In this document: positions 1,844 through 19,864 of the stretch, piece after piece
Numbering within the stretch: position 1 is the first letter of the stretch
How the letters are laid out: every line of letters begins with the position of its first letter
From: a virus
Length of the DNA stretch: 22,602 bases
Virus record (IMG/VR): IMGVR_UViG_3300042889_000546
Location: 1 to 22,602 of that record
Strand: one strand, 5' to 3'
Position numbers and translations under genes: made by a program
Notes under the pieces: generated by a model
Databases searched by the model: none
Told to the model about the DNA's origin: nothing
Seen by the model: the letters and a program-made list of their open reading frames with translations, nothing else

Positions 1844-3145
1844 ATGGGACTTAAATTTAGACGCGGTAGTACCGCCCAACAATCCGGTTCATTAGCATTC
1901 GGAGAACCATATGTGAATACCACATTGGGAACATTAGTAGTCGGTGGAGCATCAGGTGACATCGTATTATCATCAGCAGGTACAGGAAGTACCGGAAACT
2001 TTGGAGCAATTTCAGGTTCTGGTTTAGATATTACCGGAAATGCAAACATTGCAGGTAATTTAACATTAGGTGGAGCAATCACTATTGGTGATGCAACTGC
2101 AGATACTGTAAATGTTGTAGCATCTTTAAGTTCTTCACTTATTCCTCAAACAACAAACGCATTTGACTTAGGTTCTGCAACTAAAATTTGGAAAGATTTA
2201 TATATCTCAACAGGTTCTATTAAGTTTGTAGCAGGAACTACAGTTGTAAAAGAACTTAGTTTAGCAACATTAACTTCATTAGAAGCTGCAACAGGTTCGT
2301 CAAATGTATCAATAACAAATTTAAACACAACAACTGCAAGTTTAAATACTTCGGTTTCTAATTTAAACACAACAACTGCAAGTTTAAATACTTCGGTTTC
2401 TAATTTAAACACAACAACTGCAAGTTTATTAATTGAAACGGCTAATTTGGAAACATTTAGTTCATCAGCATTAACTAGACTAGATAATTTAGAAGGTAAA
2501 GATATCTCAATCACTTTAACAGGTGATGTGACTGGTACGGGAACTATTACTAATTTAGCAAACGTTTCATTTGCAACTACAATAGCTGCAAATTCAGTAG
2601 CATTAGGAACTGATACAACCGGTGATTATGTAGGAACAATTACAGGTGGAACCGGTGTAACTTCAACAGGAGCAACATCGGGTGAAGGTATCTCACATAC
2701 AATTTCAATCGGCCAAGCAGTAGCAACTTCATCAAATGTTCAATTTAATTCATTGGGTATTGGTATGGCTGCATCAGCAACTGCAGGTAGAATTGACGCA
2801 ACAAATGATGTAGTTGCATTCTCATCTTCGGATATTCGTTTCAAAGAAAATATCGTTCCAATTGAAAATGCATTGGATAAGATTTCTAAGATTAGTGGTA
2901 ACACTTATGATTGGAAAGCTGAAAACAAAGTTGAACACGGATATGAAGGAAACGATGTGGGTGTAATTGCACAAGAAATTGAAGCAGTATTACCTCAATT
3001 AGTTCAAACAAGAGAAAGTGGTTTTAAGGCAGTTAAATATGATAAATTGGTAGCATTATTAATTGAAGGTATTAAAGAGCAACAACAAAATATAGATAAT
3101 TTAACAATTCAGGTAGAAGAGTTAAAGAAGCAAAAAGGTTTATAA
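1844..3145 (+). CDS. Second tail fibre / virion fibre protein with S74 chaperone domain
   Basis: A complete 433-residue protein. The N-terminus (MGLKFRRGSTAQQSGSLAFG) is the kind of attachment segment seen at the start of phage fibre proteins. A beta-rich Gly/Thr segment and a NAFDLGSATKIWKDLYIST unit, common in phage fibre shafts, follow. At nt 2318-2428 a 14-residue unit (NLNTTTASLNTSVS) is repeated in tandem. The C-terminus carries an S74-type chaperone: SSDIRFKEN at nt 2825-2851, SGNTYDWK, GVIAQEIEAVLPQLV and a final coiled-coil-like helix. This end is clearly paralogous to that of the upstream fibre, including a shared stretch before the motif (QFNSxGxGxAAS). Either this gene and its neighbour encode two separate fibres, or one is a fibre and the other a collar/whisker-like appendage. 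The A-rich leader has no Shine-Dalgarno sequence. Confidence 0.85.
   Translation: MGLKFRRGSTAQQSGSLAFGEPYVNTTLGTLVVGGASGDIVLSSAGTGSTGNFGAISGSGLDITGNANIAGNLTLGGAITIGDATADTVNVVASLSSSLIPQTTNAFDLGSATKIWKDLYISTGSIKFVAGTTVVKELSLATLTSLEAATGSSNVSITNLNTTTASLNTSVSNLNTTTASLNTSVSNLNTTTASLLIETANLETFSSSALTRLDNLEGKDISITLTGDVTGTGTITNLANVSFATTIAANSVALGTDTTGDYVGTITGGTGVTSTGATSGEGISHTISIGQAVATSSNVQFNSLGIGMAASATAGRIDATNDVVAFSSSDIRFKENIVPIENALDKISKISGNTYDWKAENKVEHGYEGNDVGVIAQEIEAVLPQLVQTRESGFKAVKYDKLVALLIEGIKEQQQNIDNLTIQVEELKKQKGL
2318..2428 (+). repeat. 42-bp in-frame tandem repeat, 2.6 copies
   Basis: Two identical 42-bp units lie at 2318-2359 and 2360-2401, followed by the first 27 bp of a third copy at 2402-2428. 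The unit encodes NLNTTTASLNTSVS. Identity at DNA level, not only protein level, points to recent duplication or ongoing slippage. A change in copy number would lengthen or shorten the fibre shaft in 14-residue steps without breaking the frame. Confidence 0.95.
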
Positions 3146-4155: not shown

Positions 4156-5865
4156 ATGGCAAGAACAAATTTATCATTAGGAAATTTATTTAGAGCAGTT
4201 AGTGGTTCGGTGAGAACCGGTGCTGTTTCTTTAGGTGGATTAAATGGAGGCATATCCAACACAAATATGCAGGGATTTTCATTTGATTCAGTAACAGTAA
4301 CTCCACCAACTTTTACATATATTGTAGAAAGTACAAGCGAAAACGCATTCTTTTCATTTGGAACATCGGGTTCATTTGTAGCTACCAAAGTGGCAACACA
4401 AACAAATAACTTTACTTGTTCTTTTAATAATGCAAACTTTACAGTAGGTGCAGCAACTTTGGGAACATATCCAACTTTTCCAATTACTCCTGCAGCAATT
4501 AATGCATCTAACTATTCCGAAGCTCAATCTACATTGACAATGGGATATGCAGATGGTTTTAATTTAGCTGCAAGTAACTATGGTGTTGCAAGTACCAAAA
4601 TTTTATACGCAGTAGATGTTTATAATACAATTAACCAACCAGATTTTTGTTTATTATTTGGTACACAAATAGAATTGGCAAATGGTACAATGGTAAATGT
4701 TGAAGATTTGAATGTTGGTGATGAAATTAAATCTTGGGTGCCAGCAGGTTTACCAGATGAATCACAAGACCCGGAGAGTGACCAAGTTGAATGGAGATTT
4801 TATCATTCAGAAACTTTATCAGGTTCAGCACAAAACGTAACAGTTAGTGATTTAACTTTTAACTTTGCAGAAGGATATTTTTCTTTAAATGATGGTTTAA
4901 TAAAATCAACTGAAACTCACCCTCTATATGTTTGGGATAATGAGATTTCAAAATATAAATTTAAGAATGTAGGTGATATATTGCCTGGAGATAGATTGGT
5001 AATGGAAGATGAAACTGAAGTGGAAGTTACTAATATTGAAATTGTAAAAGCAGATGTTGAGATTGTAACTGTAAATGTGGAAAATGCCGATGTATATATT
5101 TCAAATGGTTTAATTTCACATAATAAAGGTACAACAACTCAACCATCGATTCCTGCAAGTGGATTAAGATTATATACCGACCCATCTAAGGCATCATCAA
5201 CAAATGGTACAGCAACAACGGATTGGTTAGATTTAAGTGGATATGGAACGGGTGTTAGACCAGCTGGTGTTACAAATGCAGCAGGTATTACAGGTGGTAA
5301 CCCATCATACAATTCCGGAGTAAGAAAACAAACATCTTGGTCTTTAAATGGTACAAATCAATTCTGGTATAAAGATACTACTACAAATATAAATGGTGGT
5401 ATTTCTCAATTTAATACTAATACAGGTACTATTCATATGTGGATTAGACCTACAACCACTTTGGGTGTATCATCAAGACATATTTTTGATTACGCTGGTT
5501 TTTATGGTTTAGCAATTGAATCAACTGATAGTTCTACTTTAAATAGAGTAAAATTCTATGGTAGTACATTAGGTAATAGTGCACAATTAACAACATCATT
5601 ATCATCAAATGTTTGGTATATGATTTCAGCAACATTCCAACCATCAGGAACTGTAACGGTTTATGTAGATAAAACATCGGTAGGAACATTTACCGCAGCA
5701 GCATTTACGGCACCATCATCTACAAACTTTTTAACAATCGGTAGTAATAGTGCAAGAACAACATTTTGGAACGGACAAATTGGACCAGTATTATTCTACA
5801 ACACATTACAAAACGCAACATCAGTAGGACAAGTATATGATTATTTCTCACCAACATACAAATAA
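4156..5865 (+). CDS. Virion protein with internal Hint (intein-like) domain and C-terminal LamG-like lectin domain
   Basis: 569 residues in three parts. Residues 1-164 are a Ser/Thr/Gly-rich, beta-looking domain (start MARTNLSLGNLFRAVSG) that resembles virion proteins. Residues 165-323 form a Hint domain: Cys165 begins a block-A-like CLLFGTQIELANG with VEDLNVGDEI, T252-E-T-H255 gives the block-B TxxH, and the end reads VYISNGLISHN with His322-Asn323. No homing endonuclease lies between the blocks. The residue after Asn323 is Lys324, not Cys, Ser or Thr, which is the mark of bacterial intein-like (A-type BIL) domains rather than standard inteins. Residues about 335-565 look like a concanavalin A/LamG-type sandwich (WSLNGTNQFW, GTIHMWIRP, WYMISATFQ, TVYVDKTSVG, WNGQIGPVLFYN). 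Likely role: a displayed adhesin that processes itself. Whether it cleaves, splices or does neither is inference. Confidence 0.8.
   Translation: MARTNLSLGNLFRAVSGSVRTGAVSLGGLNGGISNTNMQGFSFDSVTVTPPTFTYIVESTSENAFFSFGTSGSFVATKVATQTNNFTCSFNNANFTVGAATLGTYPTFPITPAAINASNYSEAQSTLTMGYADGFNLAASNYGVASTKILYAVDVYNTINQPDFCLLFGTQIELANGTMVNVEDLNVGDEIKSWVPAGLPDESQDPESDQVEWRFYHSETLSGSAQNVTVSDLTFNFAEGYFSLNDGLIKSTETHPLYVWDNEISKYKFKNVGDILPGDRLVMEDETEVEVTNIEIVKADVEIVTVNVENADVYISNGLISHNKGTTTQPSIPASGLRLYTDPSKASSTNGTATTDWLDLSGYGTGVRPAGVTNAAGITGGNPSYNSGVRKQTSWSLNGTNQFWYKDTTTNINGGISQFNTNTGTIHMWIRPTTTLGVSSRHIFDYAGFYGLAIESTDSSTLNRVKFYGSTLGNSAQLTTSLSSNVWYMISATFQPSGTVTVYVDKTSVGTFTAAAFTAPSSTNFLTIGSNSARTTFWNGQIGPVLFYNTLQNATSVGQVYDYFSPTYK
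4648..5124 (+). other. Hint / bacterial intein-like domain within the virion protein
   Basis: The segment runs from Cys165 (TGT at 4648) to Asn323 (AAT at 5122), 159 residues. It has an N-terminal Cys, a TxxH motif and a terminal His-Asn. Chemistry expected from the family: an N-S acyl shift at Cys165 and Asn323 cyclisation that breaks the bond to Lys324. Lys at +1 cannot take part in the usual trans-esterification, so cleavage of one or both ends is more likely than efficient splicing. Confidence 0.78.
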
Positions 5866-8294: not shown

Positions 8295-8792
8295 ATGCCA
8301 AACGTTTTAACATACAACGAAATTTTTTACAAACAGTGGGAACCGAAATTAGCCAATAGATTCTACATGGAATTTACTGGAACTAATATCCCTGCATATT
8401 TGGTAAAAACAGCAGCTAGACCTACTTTTACATCTGAAATTGTAGAATTAGACCATATCAATGTAAAAAGAAAAATTAAAGGAAAATCAAACTGGGATGA
8501 TATCACAGTAACATTATACGACCCAATTGTTCCATCAGGAGCACAAGCGGTAATGGATTGGATTAGATTATCACATGAGTCTATCACAGGTAGAGACGGA
8601 TATGCAGCATTTTATAAAAAGAACATTACTTTCTACTCTTTAGGACCAGTAGGTGATAAAGTTGAACAATGGACTTTGGAAGGTGCATTTATCTCTCAAG
8701 CAAATTTCGGTGAAATGGATTGGAGTAACGCAACTGACCCGGTTTCAATTGAATTAACTTTAACATTCGACCAAGCTATTTTAGAATACTAA
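8295..8792 (+). CDS. Tail tube protein (T4 gp19-like)
   Basis: 165 residues, the usual length of gp19-type tube proteins. It has the family pattern: an N-terminal NRFYMEFTGTNIPAYLVKTA, a central beta segment with the loop VKRKIKGKSNWDDITVTLYDP, then WIRLSHES, WTLEGAFISQANFGEMDW and a final SIELTLTFDQAILEY. It polymerises as stacked hexamers to make the inner tube, around the tape measure and inside the sheath. It sits immediately after the sheath gene as in T4, and a strong terminator follows, which suits a high-copy structural transcript ending here. Confidence 0.93.
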   Translation: MPNVLTYNEIFYKQWEPKLANRFYMEFTGTNIPAYLVKTAARPTFTSEIVELDHINVKRKIKGKSNWDDITVTLYDPIVPSGAQAVMDWIRLSHESITGRDGYAAFYKKNITFYSLGPVGDKVEQWTLEGAFISQANFGEMDWSNATDPVSIELTLTFDQAILEY

Positions 8793-8889: not shown

Positions 8890-9705
8890 ATGAGTGAAAA
8901 TTTAGAACCACAATTATCTAGAGGCCTTGGACCAACGCAGACCTCTCAACAAAAATCTTTTCCATTTTCAACGGAAGTTATAAGTTTACCATCAAAAGGT
9001 TTATGTTATCCAGAAAGTCATCCATTAGCAAAAGGACAAATTACAATTAAATTAATGACAGCTAAAGAGGAAGATATTTTAACTTCTTCAAATTTAATTA
9101 GAAAAGGAATTCATATTGATAAATTATTAGAATCTATTGTAGTTGAACCTGGAGTTAAACCAGATGATTTATTATTGGGGGATAAAAATGCAATATTGAT
9201 TGCAAGTAGAATTTTAGCTTTTGGTGCCGAATATACTATTAGTATAAGAGATAAATATACGGGAGAAGATACTGAAGTAAAAGTTGATTTATCAAAAATA
9301 GAAATAAAAGATATAGAAGATTCTTTATTAAATAGAAACAATGAATATAATTTTAATTTGCCACAAACTAATACACCAATTAAATTTAAATTATTAACAC
9401 ATGGTGATGAATTGGCAATTAATAAAGATATCGAAGCAATGAATAAAATTTCACAATCAAGTTCAGAAATTACAGCTAGATACAGAAGAATTATTGTTGA
9501 AATAAATGGTAGTAGAGATTTATCAGTTATTTCGGATTTTGTTACTAATAAATTATTAGCAAAAGATTCTAGAGAATTAAGAAAATATATATCAAATATT
9601 ACTCCGGATTTAAATTTTACATTTAATTACACATATCCATCAAGTGGTGAAACGGAGGCACTTTCTATCCCATTTGGGATTGACTTTTTTTACCCTACCG
9701 AGTAA
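8890..9705 (+). CDS. T4 gp26-like baseplate hub / tail assembly protein
   Basis: 271 residues. It matches the T4 gp26-type baseplate family in its pattern: VISLPSKGLCYPESHPLAKG near the N-terminus, then the family signature ITIKLMTAKEEDILTSSNLI, IDKLLESIV, DDLLLGDKNAILIASRILAFGAEYTI, and a C-terminal IPFGIDFFYPTE. Where many relatives have a Cys-rich metal-binding-like turn after the YTI strand, this one has DKYTGEDTE and no cysteines there. In T4 the protein is named as a hub assembly component; its position ahead of the tape measure here would also suit a tail assembly chaperone. Its last 62 nt overlap the next ORF, which is in the +1 frame. Confidence 0.8.
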   Translation: MSENLEPQLSRGLGPTQTSQQKSFPFSTEVISLPSKGLCYPESHPLAKGQITIKLMTAKEEDILTSSNLIRKGIHIDKLLESIVVEPGVKPDDLLLGDKNAILIASRILAFGAEYTISIRDKYTGEDTEVKVDLSKIEIKDIEDSLLNRNNEYNFNLPQTNTPIKFKLLTHGDELAINKDIEAMNKISQSSSEITARYRRIIVEINGSRDLSVISDFVTNKLLAKDSRELRKYISNITPDLNFTFNYTYPSSGETEALSIPFGIDFFYPTE

Positions 9706-9919
9706 TTATTCCGTAGTTCTACATGAGAAAATATTTCAAATGATTTATTATTCAAATGGTGGATTTAATTGGAATGATGTATATTATATGCCTACCAAAT
9801 TAAGAGAGTTTTATTTTGCACAATTATTAAAAGCAAAAGATGATGAAACAAAGCATTATGAAAAGATAGGTAATGCTGCAAAAAATAAATCAACACCATC
9901 AAAAACTATTAGAAAGTAA
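9644..9919 (+). CDS. Small tail-assembly/baseplate-associated ORF overlapping the gp26-like gene; start uncertain
   Basis: The frame is open from 9614 and gives 91 residues from the GTG at 9644. Other non-ATG starts are GTG 9647, TTG 9674 and TTG 9680. The first ATG is at 9740 and would leave only 59 residues, cutting off NYSVVLHEKIFQ, which looks like part of the conserved block with MIYYSNGGFNWNDVYYMPTKLREFYF. Small ORFs of this type are known directly downstream of gp26-like genes in T4-like phages (sometimes labelled gp51-like; I am not sure of that name here). A GGAGG at 9654-9658 is the only strong Shine-Dalgarno-like string near a possible start, 15 nt before TTG 9674. A run of seven T (9685-9691) in the overlap makes a +1 frameshift fusion with the gp26-like protein another possibility. 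Confidence 0.6.
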   Translation: MVKRRHFLSHLGLTFFTLPSNYSVVLHEKIFQMIYYSNGGFNWNDVYYMPTKLREFYFAQLLKAKDDETKHYEKIGNAAKNKSTPSKTIRK

Positions 9920-9941: not shown

Positions 9942-10190
9942 ATGTCCAAAAAAAGATTAGTAGAATTATCAATGTTTGATAAAGTTTTTGATTTGTATTT
10001 AAAAGCAAAAGATAGAAATACACAACAAGACTTTATTAAAAATATGAAAAAAAGAGACCCACAATTAGGTGCAATGTATCAAAAGTGGGATAATTCGATA
10101 AATACTTCTTTGCGTCAAATGAAACACACATTGGGTAAACAAGGTATTGATACTAAAGATATCCAAAAAGTTCTTAAGAAGAAATACTAA
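9942..10190 (+). CDS. Small basic protein of unknown function upstream of the tape measure
   Basis: 82 residues, rich in Lys and Arg, predicted mostly helical (LVELSMFDKVFDLYLKAKD, then QQDFIKNMKKRDPQLGAMY). I do not recognise the family. Its stop codon overlaps the tape measure start by one base (TAATG at 10188-10192), so translation of the two is probably coupled. That, and its place, suggest a role in tape measure folding or tail initiation, but no motif proves it. Confidence 0.7.
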   Translation: MSKKRLVELSMFDKVFDLYLKAKDRNTQQDFIKNMKKRDPQLGAMYQKWDNSINTSLRQMKHTLGKQGIDTKDIQKVLKKKY

Positions 10191-17776: not shown

Positions 17777-18553
17777 ATGAAAGAATACAAACACTTATCC
17801 TTTGAGGAAAGACAGCAAATGACCTTTGATTGGAGATATAGAGGTTGGACAGTTTTAGAATTATTAACCGAACAAGAGGTTGATGAATTAAACGAAGAAT
17901 TAGATAGATTAAGATTGGAAAGAAATGCAAACGAACCTGAAAAATGGCAAGAGTTTGAACCAATCATGCACCCACACAAAGTTTCTGAAAAAGTTGAAAA
18001 AATGTTTTCACATCCAAAAATTGTGGAAGCTTGTGAATTTCTAATGGAAGGTAATATAGTCGGAATGCAAACTTGGGGTTATTACAAACCAAAAGGTGAA
18101 TTAGGTAGAGACCAACATCAAAACGCATTTTATACAGGATGTGGACATAATGAAATTATTAACACTGCATTAGCATTAGATAATCACGACCCTGAAAATG
18201 GAGCAGTTTGGAATTATGAAGGTTCACATAGATTACCTATATTACCAATTGAAGATAATGAGGAAAGAAAGAAAACAAATACAGGTAACTGGAGAAGTGA
18301 GAGAGGTAAGAGTTGTGTAATGCCAGAAGGACATGATTTCAAAAAGATTGAAGGATATTTAAGAAAAGGACAAGTTGCATTATTACACTCACATGTAGTA
18401 CATGGTAGTGAACCAAATAGAGATACAACAAGAATGAGAAGAAATTTCTTATGTGGTTATTTAAAGAAGGGTGCATATTTCAATCCAGGTAACCAAATGA
18501 AAAGAGAACCAATTGACATTTACGAATTACGTGAAAAACATTGGGGAGAATAA
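17777..18553 (+). CDS. PhyH-type Fe(II)/2-oxoglutarate-dependent dioxygenase
   Basis: 258 residues, the normal size for the phytanoyl-CoA dioxygenase superfamily. The core is the double-stranded beta helix: GYYKPKGELGRDQHQNAFYT (first metal-ligand strand, His114), INTALALDNHDPENGAVW with NYEGSHRLPI (the usual family signature), and LLHSHVVHGSEPNRD with RMRRNF (distal ligand His209 and a likely 2-oxoglutarate-binding Arg at 219-222). The expected reaction is Fe(II)-dependent hydroxylation with 2-oxoglutarate and O2; the substrate is unknown. The first ligand pair reads His-Gln-Asn where the family normally has His-x-Asp. Such genes are frequent in marine T4-like phages. It sits between structural genes with its own promoter-like element. 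The first 80 residues are helical, with a TEQEVDELNEELDRLR start typical of the family. Confidence 0.85.
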   Translation: MKEYKHLSFEERQQMTFDWRYRGWTVLELLTEQEVDELNEELDRLRLERNANEPEKWQEFEPIMHPHKVSEKVEKMFSHPKIVEACEFLMEGNIVGMQTWGYYKPKGELGRDQHQNAFYTGCGHNEIINTALALDNHDPENGAVWNYEGSHRLPILPIEDNEERKKTNTGNWRSERGKSCVMPEGHDFKKIEGYLRKGQVALLHSHVVHGSEPNRDTTRMRRNFLCGYLKKGAYFNPGNQMKREPIDIYELREKHWGE

Positions 18554-18586: not shown

Positions 18587-18624
18587 TAGGGTATGAATCT
18601 AATTGAAGATAAACATACCCTACT
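18585..18624 (+). promoter_or_regulatory. Perfect 11-bp hairpin that covers the polymerase start codon
   Basis: AGTAGGGTATG (18585-18595) and CATACCCTACT (18614-18624) are exact inverted repeats around an 18-nt loop; the ATG at 18593-18595 is inside the left arm. Such a hairpin could hold the start codon closed and serve as a translational operator. A T-rich stretch (TTTTGTTTTT) follows the right arm, so a terminator or attenuator reading is also possible. Confidence 0.6.
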
Positions 18625-19864
18625 TTTGTTTTTAAAGGGTAATGTAAATATTGACCTTATAGTTCCTGTGTGGAGTTCTCATAGAGCACATCCATTAGGA
18701 AATCGTTTATCGTTTATTTATTATAGACAAAGTGACGGAAGTGATGGAATAATTAATTTCAATCACATAGATGCAAAAAAGTTAGACAAGTTTGACATAT
18801 CCAAAATAGTTCATGTCAATACATTAGTTTTAGACAATAGGTATTTAAACACCATAGGATTGGATTATGAGTGGGTATACTTTGAAGAGAATGGGAAACC
18901 ATTTATCTTTAGTGAGGTCGTAGAATCGGTTTATAGAGGGTATAGAAACGACTTTAAAGAGTTGAATGATTGTGTACCTTTAATGAAGTGGTACGAAACC
19001 CTAAAAACAATCCCAAATATCAGTACAAGAGAAGATTGGTATAGAAAATATACATCAGCAATCAATACATTGGGAAGGTTGGAAGGGGCTGGGGTAAAAG
19101 TCGTTGAGGAAAAATTTATTGATAGTTTTGCATTCAATCCGCAATACATCAAGCGAAACGGAATTGTGTTTACACAATACAATCCATACACCACAACGGG
19201 TAGACCATCCAATAGACATCTTAACGTCAACTACTCTGCGTTAAACAAATCCGATGGTACAAGAGAAATGTTTATTAGTCGTCATCCACACGGAACCTTA
19301 ATTCAATTTGACTATGAGTCTTATCACATTCGTTTGATTGCAAAAATAGTTGGGTATGAGTTTCCGGAAGGTACTACTGCTCACCAACACCTTGCAAACC
19401 TTTACCGATGTGATTTGGAGACGGCAAAGAAAATAACCTTTACATACCTTTATGGGGGATTAGACGATAATGCAAGAGGGATAGAGTTTTTCCAATTAGT
19501 AGATAAGTACATCAAGGGATTATACCAAAAGTTCGTCATTTCGGGAAAACTTACGACACTCTTATATAAAAGAGAAATACCATTCCATAGAATAGAGAGT
19601 GCAAACGAACAAAAGGTATTCAACTATTTACTACAATCATTGGAGACTGAAATCAATTATATGAAGATTGGTGAAGTATTGGAGTATTTGAGTGGGAAAA
19701 TGTCAAAAATGATACTTTATACTTATGATGCCTTTCTTATAGACACTCATCCGATTGAAAGAGAAAATCTTTTAAACGACATTAAAGAAATAATGGAGAA
19801 GGGTGGTTTCCCAGTTAAAGTTGAAGAAGGTGAGAATTATAACAATTTAGAGGTTATAAGTTAA
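18593..19864 (+). CDS. Short family-A DNA polymerase (polymerase domain only)
   Basis: 423 residues. The polymerase domain is clear: YNPYTTTGRPSNRHLNVN (residues 196-213), motif A LIQFDYESYHIRLIAKI with catalytic Asp240, motif B TAKKITFTYLYGG with Lys279, Phe283 and Tyr287-Gly288, and motif C LYTYDAFLID with catalytic Asp379. Differences from bacterial Pol I: the O-helix Arg position is Leu275, and the His-Asp-Glu of motif C is Tyr-Asp-Ala. The first 140 residues show no recognisable 3'-5' or 5' exonuclease motifs, so proofreading would have to come from another protein or be absent. T4 itself uses a family-B polymerase. Base use differs from its neighbours (25 G/C in the 60 bases at 19381-19440), with Cys, Arg and Pro codons spelled more variably, which hints at separate origin. 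An alternative start downstream of the hairpin cannot be ruled out. Confidence 0.82.
   Translation: MNLIEDKHTLLLFLKGNVNIDLIVPVWSSHRAHPLGNRLSFIYYRQSDGSDGIINFNHIDAKKLDKFDISKIVHVNTLVLDNRYLNTIGLDYEWVYFEENGKPFIFSEVVESVYRGYRNDFKELNDCVPLMKWYETLKTIPNISTREDWYRKYTSAINTLGRLEGAGVKVVEEKFIDSFAFNPQYIKRNGIVFTQYNPYTTTGRPSNRHLNVNYSALNKSDGTREMFISRHPHGTLIQFDYESYHIRLIAKIVGYEFPEGTTAHQHLANLYRCDLETAKKITFTYLYGGLDDNARGIEFFQLVDKYIKGLYQKFVISGKLTTLLYKREIPFHRIESANEQKVFNYLLQSLETEINYMKIGEVLEYLSGKMSKMILYTYDAFLIDTHPIERENLLNDIKEIMEKGGFPVKVEEGENYNNLEVIS

Follow-up and report, generated by a model that had tools for sequence, protein, structure and literature searches.

Genes at the locus

The window (the whole stretch of DNA that was analysed, 22,602 nt, positions 1-22,602 of the IMG/VR virus record IMGVR_UViG_3300042889_000546) carries a gp26-like ORF whose end is overlapped by a second ORF in the +1 frame (Table 1). 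The gp26-like ORF ends in ATT GAC TTT TTT TAC CCT ACC GAG TAA, and we could confirm both the seven T in the register GAC TTT TTT TAC and the overlap of the two frames, as given in a preliminary description of this DNA. A TAA lies just 5' of position 9614, from which the +1 frame remains open to 9919, its stop being at 9917-9919. The earliest ATG of this frame is at 9740, preceded by two GTG (9644, 9647) and two TTG (9674, 9680). The preliminary description had argued that a start at 9740 would remove conserved-looking residues. This proved correct, since such a start would cost the extension 16 residues (TLPSNYSVVLHEKIFQ), including a conserved L-H pair and most of predicted helix 1.

Table 1. 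Positions of the features at the putative tail chaperone locus of the window
Feature	Position	Strand	Evidence or remark
Tail tube protein, upstream of the chaperone locus	8295..8792	+	phrog_4542, 3.5e-30
gp26-like ORF, 271 aa, short form (TAC-N)	8890..9705	+	PF12322, phrog_150, AlphaFold model
GGG (Gly codon), candidate Shine-Dalgarno-like stimulator or stem arm	9676..9678	+	9-7 nt 5' of the T run
Slip site TTT TTT T	9685..9691	+	Preceding base (9684) is C, not T
C-terminal extension (TAC-C), +1 frame, 75 residues and stop	9692..9919	+	HMM, three-helix model, HHalign
Stop codon of the short form	9703..9705	+	4 codons past the shift site
82-aa ORF between chaperone and tape measure candidate	9942..10190	+	ORF list
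Probable tail tape measure protein, 962 aa	10190..13078	+	Position and length only

The overlapping frames lie 5' of a probable tape measure gene identified by its position and length, and the shift site is near the end of the first frame, as in a programmed-frameshift chaperone pair. Direct adjacency to the tape measure, as had been proposed, did not hold: the locus is upstream of the likely tape measure gene, but an 82-aa ORF intervenes, for which we found no family match in Pfam or PHROG. The 962-aa ORF is likely to be the tape measure, as judged from its position and length. An ORF of at least 400 aa follows the chaperone locus in all 64 relatives with enough sequence, and in Flavobacterium phage immuto the ORF in this slot is annotated 'tail tape measure protein', although the sequence match between the candidate and the immuto protein was not significant. 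The tail tube gene and a gene assigned to the tail sheath by order and length lie 5' of the locus.

Other ORFs of the window were also evaluated. ORFs 3-1784 and 1844-3145 are tail-fibre-like, with LNTTTASLNTSVSN-type repeats. At the end of the former lies a Peptidase_S74 endosialidase chaperone domain (1.1e-17), and the C-terminus of the latter looks similar by eye. ORF 4156-5865 has a C-terminal Laminin_G_3 domain (1.8e-14), and its central segment (CLLFGTQIEL...LISHNKG) resembles by eye a Hint/intein-type domain; this segment gave no Pfam Hint match, and an overlapping AXH match was weak. Adjoining the phage structural genes is ORF 17777-18553, a Phytanoyl-CoA dioxygenase (PhyH, 1.3e-15), while the 423-aa ORF 18593-19864, which adjoins the tail genes, matches DNA polymerase family A (1e-9) and is short for a complete polymerase.

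Family and predicted structure of the two protein parts

The gp26-like ORF matched the Pfam family T4_baseplate (PF12322, E 2e-7, above the cut-off), a family matched by both T4 gp26 and T4 gp51, and also the baseplate hub family phrog_150 (3.6e-10). The short form and the extension were modelled separately. The AlphaFold model of the short form (pLDDT 87) gave 60 BFVD matches at E<=0.001 to T4-like baseplate-hub assembly proteins, including the SP-15 baseplate hub subunit, and by profile and fold together the short form matches the T4 gp26/gp51 (PF12322) family. Its top fold match in the PDB was 2ob9, the tail assembly chaperone of HK97; with an E of 0.66 this match is not significant, and as a hint at a chaperone it is suggestive only.

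The extension was predicted to form three helices (pLDDT 84), for which Foldseek returned weak matches to small helical proteins only. In Leptospira phage LE4, two proteins with consecutive accessions match the short form (A0A343LED6) and, weakly, the extension (A0A343LED7). Using HHalign, we observed that the SP-15-type extension aligned to the window extension (probability 97%, E 1e-10), the window extension to the cyanophage extension (77%, E 2e-5), and the cyanophage extension to the C-terminus of gp51 (97%, E 5e-10, with none of 100 column shuffles coming near). The direct alignment of the window extension to gp51 was weak (E 0.02), though above all 100 shuffles. The link of the window extension to gp51 thus appears strong only through the intermediate cyanophage and SP-15 profiles.

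Frame relation and slip site in relatives

An IMG/VR scan yielded 80 relatives (44-80% identical), and two further scans with divergent queries gave 155 loci with enough sequence; with identical loci merged and the window included, the distinct loci numbered 197. The downstream ORF was in +1 in all 80 relatives of the first scan, of which 79 had T7 and one (L043) had TTCTTTT. In the wider set, the extension (detected by profile/HMM) was in +1 in 155/155 loci. The slip sequences of the 197 distinct loci were T7 in 187, TTT_CTT_T in 7, TTC_TTT_T in 2 and TTT_CTT_C in 1, and the sites other than T7 are all +1-slippable. The slip sequence and the frame relation are hence both conserved (T7 in 187/197, +1 in 155/155), which supports the +1 slip at T7 first proposed for the window, joining the gp26-like short form to the next ORF. 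We also looked in this clade for relatives that lack the T run and start the second ORF at an ATG of its own, and found none.

T7 by itself is unremarkable, since the + strand of the window holds four runs of at least seven T; it is the conservation that counts. The 0-frame stop lies 4-8 codons 3' of the shift among the relatives while the position of the T run is constant, so that the T run, and not the stop, is the fixed point. With the stop this far downstream, the site also differs from +1 sites of the RF2 type, where a stop codon occupies the A site. Nor is it a -1 heptamer (T_TTT_TTN in frame with a -1 extension): the extension is in +1, and T precedes T7 in only 1/187 loci, the base being C, G or A in the others.

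Homopolymers are error-prone in general, and one could suppose a single-ORF gene broken by a sequencing or assembly error. None of our results favors this, and the frame relation is uniform both in the 197 distinct loci, each from an assembly, and in isolates whose sequences were determined independently, which leaves this explanation a negligible chance. The +1 extension was kept in six more phage records, with the slip regions AGC TTT CTT TGG (Flavobacterium phage immuto), AAC TTT TTT TGG (Mel-JY01), TTT TTT CAC (Bacillus SP-15), TTT TTT AGT (Listeria LIS04), TTC TTT CGT (Streptococcus GXN1) and AAC TTT CTA (a 484-kb phage). In these records the extension is either absent or a separate 'hypothetical protein' with the identical stop.

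The divergent sites bear on two further explanations. On T7, a tRNA could also move back by two bases, giving the same frame and a long form with one extra Phe. TTC_TTT_T (L043), TTT_CTT_T (immuto), TTC_TTT_C (GXN1) and TTT_C (the 484-kb phage) permit matched re-pairing in +1 but not in -2, and we regard a -2 shift as improbable. A homopolymer of seven T could likewise make RNA polymerase slip, leaving some mRNAs one U short and so in the same frame as a +1 shift. Yet the run is short, exceeding seven in only one locus, and the +1 arrangement is kept in relatives with only three or four consecutive T. The conserved positions moreover reach beyond the run itself (see below), and transcriptional slippage seems to us slightly less probable even than the -2 shift. 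Several of the relatives' sites, which allow +1 and not a matched -2 and have no long T run, thus argue against both.

Silent-site constraint and absence of start codons

In 76 dereplicated loci we further compared the codons around the run with those used elsewhere in the gene; the binomial P values of this test are too small, since the loci were treated as independent and their relatedness was ignored, but the effect sizes are large. The two Phe codons were TTT in 75/76 and 76/76 (background 78%). The codon 5' of the run ended in C in all 47 cases of pyrimidine-ending codons (background 18%): GAC in 27/27 (13%), AAC in 11/11 (27%) and AGC in 5/5 (9%). After the run, Tyr was encoded by TAC in 43/46 (background 21%) and Pro by CCT in 71/76 (33%), while the Gly codon nine bases 5' of the run was GGG in 49/73 (3.3%). 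Silent sites are therefore constrained at -9, -3, 0, +3, +6 and +9, and their conservation around the T run is far beyond chance. The codons 3' of the run are read in two frames, so that part of the constraint there may reflect dual coding; the constraint 5' of the run cannot come from coding of the extension.

The amino acid sequences pointed to the same position. Residues of the +1 frame are poorly conserved, with frequent stops, 5' of the T run and conserved from the run onward, and conservation of the 0-frame protein ends just past it. We considered whether the extension could be a separate gene, translated from a GTG, TTG or ATG within the overlapping stretch or by ribosomes that reinitiate past the gp26 stop. 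The window has such codons, as do some other loci, and in phage Cygsa01 the extension is a separate ORF. Against this, the +1 frame is closed 3 nt 5' of the T run in 21/81 loci. ATG is missing from it in 144/187 loci, and in 51/187 none of ATG, GTG and TTG occurs upstream of extension residue 10, so that in those loci the extension cannot be an independent gene. The +1 residues upstream are not conserved, and a separate gene would leave the conservation of T7 unexplained. This explanation is very improbable, more so than either form of slippage above.

RNA signals around the slip site

We searched for a hairpin or pseudoknot downstream of the slip site and found no convincing structure (mean z -0.96) and no RNAalifold consensus. 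The sole pairing given by RNAalifold, between the GGG and CCC at +8..+10 across the run, was very weak. Covariation of -7 with +8 (50/72, against 34 when shuffled) is confounded by relatedness, and the 14-nt loop with the slip site would sit inside the ribosome; we therefore make no claim for this pairing. The GGG at -9 may act as a Shine-Dalgarno-like element.

The opposite frameshift direction in related phages

When we examined the cyanophage homologs, we observed that their gp26 genes end in AGT, TCT or GCT followed by TTT TTC, and that the extension is in -1 in all 57 distinct loci, 54 of them with the heptamer TTTTTTC. T_TTT_TTC with a -1 extension was also seen in Vibrio phage Bakedbeans, Agrobacterium phage Atu_ph07 and a 595-kb phage. 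In T4 there is no shift: the short and long forms are two genes, 26 and 51, and in gp51 the extension is fused in frame.

Two records differ. In S-SCSM1 (L090, 3687-3874) the extension follows TTT TTC in +1, unlike other cyanophages, with an ATG start annotated as gp51; the cause could be an indel or an error in sequencing, or the gene may truly be split. In Cygsa01 (L092, 3307-3482), the ATG of the separate extension ORF overlaps the gp26 stop (TAATG), which is a third way to express the extension domain.

A tree built from the short form placed the -1 sequences of Atu_ph07 and the 595-kb phage near the base of the +1 group, on long branches that make the placement unsure; the members of the +1 group could have one origin. 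Viral-contig scans with the gp26 of Bakedbeans, Atu_ph07 and SP-15 recovered only the queries themselves. The chaperone family may have reversed its frameshift direction: T_TTT_TTC with a -1 shift would have given way to C_TTT_TTT_T with a +1 shift, perhaps a single time and at the same Phe-Phe pair, after which the +1 clade would have fixed its own signal (GGG at -9, T7 without a T before it, and UAC/UGG and then CC after it). We consider the case for such a reversal to be evenly balanced.

Proposed mechanism

Sequence comparison established how the two frames relate, that the signal is conserved, which protein family is involved and how the genes are ordered. Together these findings make it very probable that programmed +1 frameshifting at T7 lets the locus encode two forms, short and long, of a T4-type tail assembly chaperone. 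Most ribosomes would reach the stop of the gp26-like ORF and yield the short form (TAC-N). In a minority, the tRNA-Phe paired with the second UUU of C_UUU_UUU_U would occupy the P site while UAC or UGG waits in the A site; this tRNA would move one base forward onto UUU, so that reading would continue in +1. The long form would gain a helical domain of 75 residues (TAC-C), with the junction ...IDFF|TLPSNYSVVLHEKIF... If the two forms work as lambda gpG and gpGT do, the tape measure protein would be bound by a large number of short copies and a few long ones, and these would recruit the subunits of the tail tube. The slippage itself, its rate, the ribosomal rather than transcriptional route and the chaperone role are inferred.

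About 200 natural homologs that fix one +1 signal, beside a -1 sister set of the same gene family, offer a comparative system for what determines the direction of a shift. Annotated genomes (immuto, SP-15, Mel-JY01 and others) are at present without the long chaperone, or have its end as a 'hypothetical protein'.

Comparison with known systems

Frameshifting is reportedly conserved in several T4-like groups, according to the abstract of Vladimirov et al. That study is reported to have identified T4-like tail chaperone genes (Vladimirov, Gautam & Davidson 2022, doi 10.1016/j.virol.2021.11.003; cited as ref 44 in PMC10885494 and ref 76 in PMC12846349). According to these later papers, some T4-like phages carry a long fused gene besides a short one (PMC10885494), and T4-like TAC genes have poly-T -1 sites (PMC12846349). 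A review of 2016 had described G-T frameshifting as conserved in long-tailed phages except T4 (PMC5009743). Frameshifted T4-like tail chaperones as such are thus known already, since poly-T -1 examples have been published, and the novelty lies in the +1 version. The features that appear to be new are the +1 polarity, the tightly fixed signal (186/187 loci have a base other than T ahead of the run) and the switch in shift direction among members of a single gene family. A +1 version with this signal and change of direction was not found in the literature searched; Vladimirov et al. 2022 might contain a +1 case. Signals for +1 slippage in bacteria are poorly defined, and according to the PRFect paper (PMC10885494) no general forward (+1) motif has been identified.

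The window resembles the T4-like tail chaperones in what is apparently the same family (gp26/gp51, PF12322), in a short form and a long form with a C-terminal domain, and in a slip site that lies close to the 3' end of the short gene and upstream of the tape measure. It differs from their sites as later papers describe them (poly-T -1, or two separate genes), the shift here being +1 with C, G or A before the run. With lambda gpG/gpGT (PMC5009743) it shares two chaperone forms encoded 5' of the tape measure, of which a frameshift yields the long one; the direction (-1 in lambda), the slip sequence and the protein sequence are different. The +1 shift at a UUU codon is also like that of influenza A PA-X (UCC_UUU_CGU, PMC3498833), and the relative GXN1 has UUC_UUU_CGU; gene and virus are unrelated, and the window clade mostly has UUU_U where PA-X has UUU_C. 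Also close are gp26 and the downstream 'gp51' ORF of Kyanoviridae cyanophages, with a homologous short form and extension and the same Phe-Phe position. Unlike the window, these phages shift -1 at T_TTT_TTC (57/57 loci), and of two of their records one (S-SCSM1) annotates the extension as a gp51 in its own right and the other (S-CAM8) leaves it unannotated.
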